Shown here: piece after piece, positions 13,213 to 17,702 of the stretch
How positions within the stretch are numbered: the first letter of the stretch is position 1
How the letters are laid out: each line of letters opens with the position of its first letter
Notes under the pieces: generated by a model
Database searches by the model: none
What the model was told of the DNA's origin: nothing
The model's input: the letters and a program-made list of their open reading frames with translations, nothing else
Position numbers and translations under genes: made by a program
DNA from: a bacterium
GTDB taxonomy: Bacteria; JAMCPX01
Reading direction: 5' to 3'
DNA length: 33,028 bases
NCBI GenBank assembly: GCA_021792615.1
Contig: JAJYUJ010000029.1
Coordinates: 1 to 33,028 of the forward strand

Positions 13213-13285
13213 GGGCTGTTAGCTCAGTTGGTAGAGCAGCTGACTCTTAATCAGCGGGTCGCAGGTTCGATCCCTGCACAGCCCA
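13213..13285 (+). tRNA. tRNA-Lys (anticodon CTT)
   Basis: 73-nt cloverleaf without encoded CCA. The acceptor stem is GGGCTGT/ACAGCCC with discriminator A. The D arm contains AGCTCAGTTGGTAGAGC, and the anticodon arm GCTGA-CTCTTAA-TCAGC puts CTT at positions 34-36. The T arm is GCAGG-TTCGATC-CCTGC. It is intact, and its 3' half serves as the left boundary of the island that follows. Confidence 0.97.
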
Positions 13286-13289
13286 TTTT
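13243..13289 (+). repeat. attL-like repeat: 3' half of tRNA-Lys plus 4 T
   Basis: 47 bases from the anticodon loop through the tRNA end. They recur at 17656-17702 in the same orientation with a single difference (T13259 versus C17672). Identity stops abruptly at both sides. Integrases that target tRNA 3' ends leave exactly this arrangement, with the intact tRNA on one side of the insert. Confidence 0.88.
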
Positions 13290-13448
13290 TAAATTCAATA
13301 CGTTAGCAATCTTGTTGCTCATACGATCTGCTCACTGTGATCGTTTTTGTGATCACCTGCTGTAATAAGAGTATCTAACCCTCTGAGATAAGCTGAAAAA
13401 AGTAGACACCAAAAGGTAAGTAAATAATAACTTAATGGAGGTGTTAAA

Positions 13449-13550
13449 ATGGAAAGAATACCGTATGGGAAGTACACGAAGGAATTCAGGCAAGAGGCAG
13501 TAAAGGTTGTGATTGATGGTGGATTATCGATATATAGAGTGCATCATTGA
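13449..13550 (+). pseudogene. IS3-family transposase OrfA, 5' remnant
   Basis: After GGAGG at 13437-13441, an ATG opens a frame beginning MERIPYGKYTKEFRQEA, the usual helix-turn-helix start of IS3-type OrfA. Homology stops at about codon 29 (base ~13537), where the sequence passes into the IS256 fragment, and a stop follows at 13548. About 70 percent of OrfA is gone. Confidence 0.75.
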
Positions 13551-13969
13551 GGGCATCCTGGGAAAACGGTAAATTGAGTTGTTCGCATGCCCGTTTGATC
13601 TGAGCATGAGAATAGTTGTTGGACAGAAGTGCGATGAGAAATTCCTCATATTCCTTGCCTGCTCGCTTCCATCGCGCAGGCAGAATTGCGGGCCGGAAGT
13701 ATTTTGACCCCAATCGAACCCGGGGTACCTTTAAATCCAGTTTCCCGATAGTTAACGGTAATATCCTGTCATAAAAACCATTCCCGTCATCCGCTGGAGC
13801 GTTGATAAGATACTTGCCACGATCCTGAAGCATAATGGCATTGACCAGTTCCTGAAGAATATTACTGATACCAATTCTCTCCACCGCTCATGCGATCACT
13901 GAGCTCCTGTGCCAATTTTTCTACCACCTGTTTTGTTTGTGCGTCTAAGAGAGAGTCTATTTGTTTCAT
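13538..13969 (-). pseudogene. IS256 (mutator) family transposase, N-terminal remnant
   Basis: Reading leftward, an ATG at 13969 after AAAAGGAGG starts MKQIDSLLDAQTKQVVEKLA and runs into a stop at 13862. The neighbouring frame then continues the protein: ELVNAIMLQDRGKYL, GFYDRILPLTIGKLDLKVPR, and so on to PFSQDALNDAL. One frameshift near 13875-13890 therefore splits the gene. It is cut off at about 13540 against the IS3 orfA remnant, before any catalytic DDE residue. The LDLKVPR and the following basic stretch are typical of the mutator N-terminal region. Confidence 0.75.
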
Positions 13970-14100
13970 TGAACCTCCTTTTTTATTATAAAACTATTTT
14001 CATAAATAAACGACCTCCACAATTCGTTTATAAACGATCTTTGTGATCCGGTTGACACCTAACCGCATATCTTTTTACATCCTTTTGTAGTAACTTTTTC

Positions 14101-14595
14101 ATGAGAATCAATTTTTTTTGCTCCTTTCTATACACAATATTCCAGATACACCCCCTTGCCGGACATAAGGATATATACACGGGAGAAATCGTTGGGCATG
14201 CCATGAGTGATCGTATAACGAAGGAACTTGTCAGCAGGTCGCTATTTCAGGCCGTGGCTTCAAAACGCCCGGCCAGGGGGCTGATTCACCATTCCGACGG
14301 GGGGAGTCAGTACAGTGCATATGACTATAGTAAGCTGCTCGAACAGTTTGGGATGCAGTCATCGATGAGCAGGAAAGGGAACTGCTACGATAACGCTCCT
14401 ATGGAGAGTTTCTGGGGAACGCTGAAGAACGAGCTTATTTATTATCGTCGTTACGAGAACAGACAAGAGGCCATCCAGGACATTACCGAGTATAGAGAAA
14501 TCTTCTACAACCGGCAGAGGAGGCAGAAACGGCTGGAATATTTATCACCCGCTGCTTTTGAAAGGAAATTCTATGAAAAAAGGCTTGCGTCATGA
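14101..14595 (+). pseudogene. IS3-family transposase OrfB, C-terminal remnant
   Basis: Homology to the IS3 rve/DDE domain starts at about 14149 (LAGHKDIYTGEIVGHAM). The second catalytic Asp lies in IHHSDGGSQY and the Glu in APMESFWGTLKNE, and the usual YNRQRRQKRLEYLSP end is complete. The first catalytic Asp and roughly the N-terminal half are missing, so it is inactive. The 15 residues before 14149 are not transposase-like. Confidence 0.85.
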
Positions 14596-14809
14596 AGCCA
14601 ATTGGTGTCTATGACTTCCATACGCCCTCATTTTTAGGTGCTCTGCTATTTTAGGAGATATTGCTATAGTATTTTTGCCTTCATTATGTTTCAATTCAAT
14701 GTCGGATAAAGACTCAAACATTGCATCATTTAATTTATAGCTTAATTTTGTGAGGGAAGAAAGCTGTTCACCTTGCAAGAGTCTTATAATAACTGTCCTC
14801 TTGAATCAT
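14590..14809 (-). pseudogene. broken gene coupled to aroB, truncated by IS3
   Basis: An ATG at 14809 overlaps the aroB stop as ATGA, suggesting translational coupling, but its frame stops after 13 codons at 14768. The adjacent frame, from about 14778, continues a plausible protein (LSYKLNDAMFESLSDIEL, TIAISPKIAEHLKMRAY) until about 14611, where the IS3 right terminal repeat begins. One frameshift and an IS truncation have therefore destroyed it. I do not recognise the family. Confidence 0.5.
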
Positions 14810-15906: not shown

Positions 15907-15973
15907 ATTGCCAAACCTCCTTTTACAATAGCTATATTAAAGATATTGAATATTATTAATTATTATTATACCT

Positions 15974-16201
15974 TCAATCTAAGGTATCTGAAATCTCAAT
16001 AGCTATGTTATAAGGTATTACTTTATCCAATTGCTGTTTGTCAATAATATTCGTTAAACTTTGTTTTACCTGTGCGTGATACAGGTAAAACATACTAATA
16101 TTCTCCCTCGCATTTGTCCAAAAGAATAATTGAAAAGTCTTTGAGCTTATATCAGTATTGTAATATCCATGTTCTTGACGCTGACCTGTATGAACAGAGC
16201 A
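15974..16201 (-). pseudogene. unrecognised ORF fragment upstream of aroB
   Basis: A 75-codon open frame ends in TGA at 15974. The only ATG is internal (16093), giving 39 residues beginning MFYLYHAQVKQSLTNIIDKQ. The frame upstream of it reads as natural protein (EHGYYNTDISSKTFQLFFW), which suggests a gene that has lost its start. Function unknown. The plus strand also has a protein-like run in about 16158-16243 (VLDADLYEQSISGMDLDIYI), so the coding strand is uncertain. Confidence 0.3.
16064..16090. repeat. 27-bp perfect palindrome
   Basis: TTTTACCTGT, a 7-base spacer, then ACAGGTAAAA. No T run follows on either strand, so a protein-binding site is more likely than a terminator. The core ACCTGT-N7-ACAGGT recurs at 17533-17551. 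Confidence 0.5.
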
Positions 16202-16261
16202 TTAGCGGTATGGACTTGGACATATACATAGTAAAGGATTAAGCCCTTTGTAACCACCTTT

Positions 16262-16540
16262 TTATAACACTTTCCGTTTATAATTCACGTATTCAACACT
16301 ACTGTCATTGATCTGGTATCCGTATATCCAGCCTTTAATATTATATTTACAAGGTGTCCGTCTCCGGTGTAACCAATGATGGCGGTATAGGTTATTTACA
16401 GCCCTGCATACCTGTTGAATAGACATGTCGAGCGGATCAGCAAGCTCGTTTACGGTCATTCTATCTTGCTTGCAATAAGCAAGTATAGCAAGACATGGGA
16501 TTGGAAATAAATTCGATAGCTCATTCCGATAAACCGGTAA
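16262..16540 (-). pseudogene. winged-helix DNA-binding protein fragment
   Basis: From the internal ATG at 16459 the frame gives 65 residues, but it is open to 16540 and the upstream part is clearly protein-like (ELSNLFPIPCLAILAYCKQ). The whole reads as a winged helix: helix CLAILAYCKQ, helix VNELADPLD, recognition helix IQQVCRAVNNLYRHHWL, then a basic wing RRRTPC. The missing N-terminus and lack of a ribosome-binding site point to a decayed regulator or a domain of a larger protein. Family not identified. Confidence 0.45.
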
Positions 16541-16918
16541 TCAAATCCGGTATCTCATACCACTTAAATCGATTTGTATCGGATGTTCTCTGATTCACTT
16601 TCTATATTTTATGATATTGTTCGATTCATTTACGATAAGGATATATTCTGAATTTTAATGTCATAGACGAGAATAGTCCTGCGGGGTTTTCGGTACATGA
16701 AATATGCTAAGAGGAATTCCGTTATTGAATTTGTCTTAACCTGAAATTGCCTTATAAGCAAATTCTATGGTCATTATAGAACCATAACCATCTTTTCATT
16801 ATTTCTATTAGGAATATCATTGGTTTTAATTAAAGCCTTAATATAATCTTTATAGTAATCCATGATTATGACACCTGCTTTTGATATACCGCCTGTAAAC
16901 ATGCTATAAGAATAATAG
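16541..16918. other. non-coding or decayed stretch of the island
   Basis: About 380 A+T-rich bases with stops in all frames. I see no convincing gene, RNA or repeat. It separates the winged-helix fragment from the glycosyltransferase fragment and is probably eroded sequence of both. Confidence 0.5.
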
Positions 16919-17563
16919 GGGTATGATCAACACAGAAACAACAAATTAATAGATGCACATCCGCCGTTTGCAGCAATCTTGTTATTACCTTTATGGTTTT
17001 TGAATTTCCATAATGCGATATTCATATGGGTTATCATAACGATATTATGTATGGTTTTGATAATTTCTTTATTGCTTAAATCTGAAAGTATCCCATTGGT
17101 ATACCTACCTTTAGTATCTTTATTTGTTCTCGCATGGGCTCCTTTTCAAATAAACCTTTCCAATGGTCAAATATCTATTCTTGTTACCTTGTTTGTCATA
17201 GCGGGATGGTACTATTTAAAAAGTGAAAGAGAAAGCCTCGCCGGTATTTTCATTGCACTCGGCACAATGCTTAAGTTTTACCCCGGACTTTTAATAATAT
17301 ACTTACTCATTAATAAAAAGTATAAAGCGTTCTTGTCGGCTACAATTGGAATCGGCTTTATTTTTATTCTCTCGTACCTTATCACAAACCACGACCTTTT
17401 TTACTTCATTTTCAACGTTTTGCCCGGGGATATTCAACGCTGTGAAATTGTTTTCGGGAATACTTCTTTCAATGGATTTTTCACGCAATTGTTTCTGCAT
17501 TTGCAACCATACGGTAACACTATAGCCTTTATACCTGTAGTAAGAACAGGTAGTAAGCCATAG
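16919..17563 (+). pseudogene. GT87 (DUF2029) glycosyltransferase fragment
   Basis: The frame is open from 16919; no plausible start or ribosome-binding site precedes it. It reads HPPFAAILLLPLWFL, several membrane spans, and the GT87 hallmark NLSNGQISILVTLF followed by MLKFYPGLLIIYLL. These polyprenol-phosphate-dependent, multi-spanning enzymes are normally about 400 residues; only the middle ~215 are present. The last ~12 residues do not look like the family, so the gene appears cut at both ends. The 3' end lies about 90 bases from the right island boundary. Confidence 0.65.
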
Positions 17564-17655
17564 TAACACATAAAAGACCGCTGATCGGCTTGAATAAAGG
17601 GTTTGCACGGAATTAACCCTACTTTTCAAGACCTTATGTTTTTGCCCTTTTTATA

Positions 17656-17702
17656 ACTCTTAATCAGCGGGCCGCAGGTTCGATCCCTGCACAGCCCATT
17701 TT
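17656..17702 (+). repeat. attR-like repeat: displaced 3' half of tRNA-Lys
   Basis: 46 of 47 bases match 13243-13289, in direct orientation, 4413 bases downstream. It contains the anticodon loop, variable region, T arm and 3' acceptor strand only; no 5' half precedes it, so it cannot be a tRNA gene. It marks the right end of the island. Confidence 0.88.

Follow-up and report, generated by a model that had tools for sequence, protein, structure and literature searches.

A decayed island in a tRNA-Lys gene and the family of small integrative elements from which it probably derives

The locus and the question

How does the 3′ half of a tRNA-Lys gene come to stand twice, in the same orientation, on one bacterial contig, and what is the DNA that separates the two copies? 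The question is raised by a stretch of 33,028 nucleotides (contig JAJYUJ010000029.1 of assembly GCA_021792615.1), which is analysed here as a whole and referred to as the window. The comparison covers nine genomes of the phylum, all of one family, among them the source genome (G000) and a congener (G003). Contigs are denoted by C and their number.

The direct repeat and the island between its copies

The repeat comprises 47 bp at positions 13243-13289 and 17656-17702, with a spacing of 4413 bp. Both copies have the same orientation and are identical in 46 of 47 positions, exactly the single mismatch given in a preliminary description of this DNA. A whole-genome search finds the sequence at just these two places in the 2.54-Mb source genome; the second copy has E = 5e-17 and, hence, the repeat is not due to chance. 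ARAGORN calls a single intact tRNA-Lys(CTT) at 13212-13286 (plus strand; Rfam RF00005), which confirms the proposed position of the intact gene at the left, and it does not call the right copy as a tRNA. In the Rfam scan, the tRNA is the sole convincing match.

The left copy, termed the left att identity block (13243-13289, plus strand), begins at the 5′ border of the anticodon loop, the anticodon itself being 13246-13248, and ends with a TTTT beyond the tRNA end; it is identical to the single copy of G003. The right block (17656-17702, plus strand) is a displaced 3′ fragment of tRNA-Lys with one T-to-C change. Thus, the locus has the ends of a tRNA-targeted element, one of them marked by the complete tRNA and the other by a displaced piece of this gene in the same orientation. 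The mismatch had been taken to suggest some age. Because it is located in the displaced copy, which is free of selection, and the left copy equals that of G003, it says little on age and is weak evidence at most.

The DNA between the copies had been described as rich in A+T, and its GC content is indeed 0.361, as compared with 0.421 in all of the window to its left and 0.467 to its right. The tetranucleotide profile agrees: when 4.4-kb stretches are taken from the window in steps of 500 bp, the one starting at 13290 deviates most.

The empty site in a congener and single-copy loci in other relatives

The congener G003 carries one tRNA-Lys and one copy of the 47-bp sequence on contig 146. This contig matches the window at 13005-13289 and then from 17656 onward, with a gapless joint and 93-94% identity in the flanks. 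The flanks 13005-13242 and 17703 onward are, therefore, joined by a single 47-bp copy, as had been predicted for an empty site. The site comes from a single close relative, in which it is located terminally on a short contig (locus L027). The tRNA-Lys is single-copy as well in G006, G007, and G008, which represent two other genera of the family (10-16 kb fetched per locus). The bases right after the single copy in G003 and G007 are those that follow the right copy of the window, which is the pattern to be expected of a right copy that represents the original end on the chromosome. Read from these alignments, the pattern fits an insertion that would be later than the split from G003.

The left end and the integrase stub

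The left copy is adjoined by a left arm (13290-13318, plus strand) with the motif ATTCAATACGTTA at 13293-13305, recognised by its similarity to the left arm on G000:C31. The latter lies beside a tRNA-Met, and the left end of the island (13294-13354) is 82% identical to it over 61 bp. On C31, a complete tyrosine integrase gene terminates at the arm, its last codons being ...ESDHKSDHSEQFV followed by the stop. The window retains, at 13319-13362 on the minus strand, the 3′ stub of such a gene, i.e. the last 14 codons and the stop (TAGDHKNDHSEQIV; also given as ...GDHKNDHSEQIV). The stub was identified by alignment to the C-termini of the intact integrases of G000:C31 (DHKSDHSEQFV before the stop) and of G007:C68 and G000:C74 (QQGDHKKDH...). 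The earlier statement that no integrase is recognisable is corrected by this stub. The left arm and the integrase 3′ end are common to the window, C31 (tRNA-Met), and C74 (tmRNA). Since the integrase gene is reduced to its last 14 codons, the island is a remnant and not a functional tRNA-targeted integrative element. The stub and the two arms of the attachment sites allow the family of the parent element to be identified.

The consensus motif of the family is TTTCAANNNNTTA, and the version in the left arm of the window differs from it by one mismatch. With at most one mismatch, the motif occurs in 11 of 15 left ends as opposed to 4% of length-matched random sequences, and it adjoins most element ends, left and right. 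It may be regarded as a candidate arm-type site of the integrase. Apart from the one mismatch, the window shows the left end typical of the family, namely an arm with this motif beside an RNA gene and the integrase 3′ end behind it.

In addition, an imperfect inverted repeat of ~21 bp, GTGATCGCTTTTGTGATC, is found at both element ends: in the window at 13334-13355, at a left end at L046:3631-3651, and before right arms at L034:8938-8958 and L049:10159-10182. Its left copy encodes the integrase end. A regulator or an excision factor may bind to it.

The right end and its glycosyltransferase gene

The right arm is a family repeat of ~107 bp (17537-17643, plus strand) with the motif TTTCAAGACCTTA at 17624-17636. 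It is 94% identical to the copy on G000:C49 and 88-92% identical to the copies of G007, and it is present in six of the nine genomes. In most copies, a displaced part of an RNA gene begins within 5-20 bp, and the same holds for the tRNA-Lys half in the window. These displaced fragments derive from tRNA-Met, tRNA-Cys, and tmRNA in the source genome, from tmRNA and tRNA-Met in G007, from tRNA-Leu and tRNA-Ser in G006, from tRNA-Cys and tRNA-Arg in G008, and from tRNA-Met in G001 and G004. The arm was not found near the 80 named relatives of the integrase from other phyla, which mostly adjoin tRNA genes; hence, the shared arms look lineage-specific.

Three contigs of G007 deviate from this arrangement (C21, L036:894-1060; C31, L037:1-150; C32, L051:8556-8760). 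In place of a tRNA, these right arms precede a hairpin similar to a tRNA T-arm, with the sequence GCGGGTTTAAAACCCGC or nearly that sequence. The target block is common to two of the three, which differ beyond it, a pattern that would fit the use of such hairpins as targets.

The gene next to the right arm is a truncated GT87 glycosyltransferase gene (16927-17541, plus strand; PF09594, E 1e-24), which is 94% identical to that of G007:C68 over 615 bp at the nucleotide level. Relative to the 437-aa gene of G007:C68, it is without both ends, and a deletion of ~530 bp fuses it to the right arm. GT87 adjoins the right arm in four elements with four targets, i.e. those of tRNA-Lys, tRNA-Met, and tRNA-Cys in G000 and of tmRNA in G007 (the loci, listed without regard to this order, are window 16927-17541, L034:7592-8905, L049:10218-11531, and L048:7773-8150). 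No GT87 was found beside the remaining right arms, and the gene is not strictly family-defining. Its constant position suggests a role for the element, perhaps in alteration of the surface.

The interior of the island

The left part of the interior is occupied by the remnant of an IS3-type element (13381-14613, plus strand), which is internally interrupted, 98% identical to a copy on G000:C6 over 155 and 160 bp, and recognisable by its rve domains (E 2e-14). A fragment of a Mutator/IS256-type transposase (13486-13884, minus strand; PF00872, E 1.3e-6) lies inside it. Both agree with the IS remnants noted previously. Among the plasmid matches listed, similarity runs through the IS3 part only.

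The previously noted intact aroB-like gene (14806-15906, minus strand; PF01761/PF24621) encodes an extra 3-dehydroquinate synthase-like protein of 366 aa with full DHQ_synthase domains; another aroB is located in the source genome at G000:C2:67440. Compared with the homologue on G007:C39, dN/dS is ~0.17. The homologue of G007 adjoins tRNA-Met and has a reading frame broken at codon 309. Most likely, the gene of the island is cargo retained under selection. A conserved leader with the inverted repeat ATACCTTA...AAGGTAT is located upstream of it (15935-16060), and the G007 homologue has this leader too. It has no match in Rfam and, hence, is not a known riboswitch.

Remnants of the backbone of the parent element follow at 16249-16921, piecewise collinear with G007:C68 6456-7575 (85-97%) and similar to G000:C23 (96% over 315 bp). 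As the parts 14620-14800 and 16060-16250 match nothing, the island may have been put together from two or more elements.

Intact relatives

A complete element of ~8.4 kb on G007:C68 is bounded on the left by the tmRNA gene at 342-688 and on the right, at about 9088-9118, by a displaced end of tmRNA. Its integrase (PF00589, E 8e-39) reads toward the tmRNA, and the element further contains another tyrosine recombinase of smaller size, an AAA_25 ATPase that resembles phage primase-helicases, an unknown gene, GT87, and the right arm. The source genome itself has intact family integrases on C31 (tRNA-Met), C74 (tmRNA), and C4 (tRNA-Thr). The GT87 genes of G000 and G007 are 94% identical versus 73% for the flanking host gene, and the tmRNA-type integrases of both genomes are 98% identical, which indicates that elements of the family have moved between genera.

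Two further observations concern the variability of such elements. A 7.1-kb element in tRNA-Met (G007:C34, L084:2227-9434) carries a DNA methyltransferase-like gene and an adjacent ORF near its right end, possibly restriction-modification cargo as far as can be read from sequence. On G000:C49 (L048:7443-7613) and G008:C84 (L089:1043-1708), the right arm and the displaced tRNA half are directly followed by a left arm and an integrase end, apparently by tandem insertion at the same tRNA gene.

Proposed origin of the island and alternatives

In the established mechanism, a tyrosine integrase recombines attP with an attB located in a tRNA gene; the overlap region is often the anticodon loop, and the copy brought by the element regenerates the gene (PMC4383910; PMC8371274). 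The island very probably arose in this manner, namely by insertion of a family element into tRNA-Lys by its own tyrosine integrase, followed by decay. A circular element with its own copy of the tRNA-Lys(CTT) 3′ half would have recombined with the chromosomal tRNA-Lys gene, and the exact crossover would fall in the anticodon-loop region. The copy of the element would have regenerated the tRNA at 13212-13286, which then marks the attL side, and the original 3′ half, displaced to the opposite end, would have become the right copy. The parent element would have had its integrase at the tRNA-side end reading toward the tRNA, AAA/replication-type genes, GT87 at the far end as is often the case, and conserved arms. 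In the presumed course of decay, the integrase would have been lost except for its last 14 codons, IS elements would have landed inside, and deletions would have removed the greater part of the backbone and truncated GT87 on either side, with the aroB-like cargo staying intact. No integrase for tRNA-Lys was found among the family genomes, and we therefore infer the enzyme from the ends and the stub. The earlier reading of the locus as a footprint of tRNA-targeting integration is upheld by the empty site, both arms, and the stub. Neither of the findings named beforehand as speaking against it was made: instead of the same genes without the second repeat, the relatives have a site from which this repeat is absent, and there is no tandem tRNA array.

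The island is presumably immobile at present, its mobility being unlikely. A resident integrase of the family might in principle mobilise it in trans, but this is improbable and unsupported.

The element might also never have carried an integrase at this site, having been inserted in trans by the integrase of a sister element in the way of a miniature non-autonomous element. Retained arms and att copies with the integrase gone are what this would leave, and intact family integrases exist in the source genome (C31, C74, C4). However, the integrase 3′ stub adjoins the left arm, where the end of this gene normally lies, so the gene was once present. Moreover, the resident integrases are at other targets (Met, tmRNA, Thr) with differing cores, and the search did not turn up another copy that lacks the integrase and shares the deletions. 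We consider insertion in trans very unlikely. Precise excision of an ancestral island from G003 would leave an identical empty site, but the tRNA-Lys is single-copy in three more genomes of two other genera, and one gain is simpler than several losses, which makes an ancestral island highly improbable. The alternative that the second repeat was left behind by a tandem tRNA array or a duplication, with ordinary chromosome in between, has a negligible probability: a lone 3′ tRNA fragment could arise so, but the empty site of G003 with its one copy rules out an array, the 107-bp right arm abuts other tRNA or tmRNA fragments elsewhere, and the island has the most deviant composition in the window.

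Targets of the family and use of the tRNA 5′ half

Integrases of the family adjoin tRNA-Met, -Cys, -Thr, -Arg(ACG), -Leu(CAA), -Leu(TAA), -Phe, and -Ser(TGA) as well as tmRNA, which adds up to ten RNA genes with the tRNA-Lys of the window. Elements at Thr, Leu(CAA), Leu(TAA), and one Ser(TGA) are located 5′ of the tRNA; tRNA-Ser(TGA) is used from both sides. The 5′-side members are located on G000:C4 (L083:1134-2291), G001:C251 (L072), G008:C108 (L088), G006:C27 (L090) together with G006:C5 (L052), and G008:C65 (L092). For G006, a displaced 5′ fragment of tRNA-Leu(TAA), identical in 38 of 39 positions, follows a right arm on another contig; hence, the 5′ half was the attachment block. In G004 and G008, fragments named by eye as tRNA-Arg(CCT), tRNA-His, and tRNA-Arg(CCG) come after right arms, and a search found a second copy of the tRNA-Arg(CCT) fragment in the same genome. 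They suggest three further potential targets of the 5′-side kind. A displaced 5′ fragment for the tRNA-Thr element on C4 was not found in the source assembly, and this pair is thus unproved. In the tree of full-length integrases, the two 5′-half users with complete genes group together (95/92). The tree that includes partial integrase genes does not resolve the number of half changes.

No relatives were found in viral contigs, either by the right-arm pattern or by the integrase. A prophage or phage satellite is not indicated: scans of the relatives' proteins with PHROGs and Pfam revealed no phage structural, packaging, or satellite hallmark genes.

On balance, we lean toward regarding the island as a remnant of an undescribed family of small elements (complete ones of ~7.1 and 8.4 kb) from one uncultured lineage, the arms of which are alike and the integrases of which have moved among at least ten RNA genes, some with use of the 5′ half. 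The use of many targets and that of the 5′ half are both already known, insertion into the 5′ half being described as rare.

Comparison with known systems and significance

In Islander tDNA islands, a regenerated tRNA and a displaced fragment mark the ends, the enzyme is a tyrosine integrase, and targets are switched among RNA genes (PMC4383910). The island resembles them in all three respects. However, the Islander procedure requires an integrase gene and would discard the island of the window, which is without one. Tycheposons of Prochlorococcus are cargo-carrying tRNA-linked elements, as described at second hand in PMC10872708. Likenesses to the present family are the border tRNA, the tyrosine recombinase, variable metabolic cargo, and several tRNA genes per family. 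In this comparison by description only, the present family differs by often having GT87 at the far end and by using tmRNA and tRNA 5′ halves.

Suicidal integrases are enzymes whose gene is split upon integration of the element. Among the pT26-2-related integrases of archaea, 14 tRNA genes are known for suicidal integrases, and pTN3-like ones use the 5′ half (PMC8371274). The likeness consists of one integrase family acting over many tRNA genes and of the 5′-half use by the pTN3-like ones. In contrast to these archaeal and partly suicidal systems, the integrase gene is intact in the integrated relatives of the island. Phage-type tyrosine integrases (PHROG 1; e.g. of Salmonella phage SEN22 and Synechococcus phages) share ~30-32% identity with the family integrases, but, unlike in the phages, no phage structural genes were recognised in the family proteins scanned.

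Taken by itself, the locus is an ordinary and well-proved case of tRNA insertion and decay with a textbook mechanism, and it serves as an entry point, since its right arm led to the element family in a phylum about which little is known. The wider family, which targets ten or more RNA genes and inserts into either tRNA half, is the more interesting part. Its ends remain similar across changes of the target RNA gene and of the tRNA half, which would make it a natural series on target change by integrases. The change of half is open to direct testing with the attL/attR pair of tRNA-Leu(TAA) in G006 and with tRNA-Ser(TGA), which is used on both of its sides.
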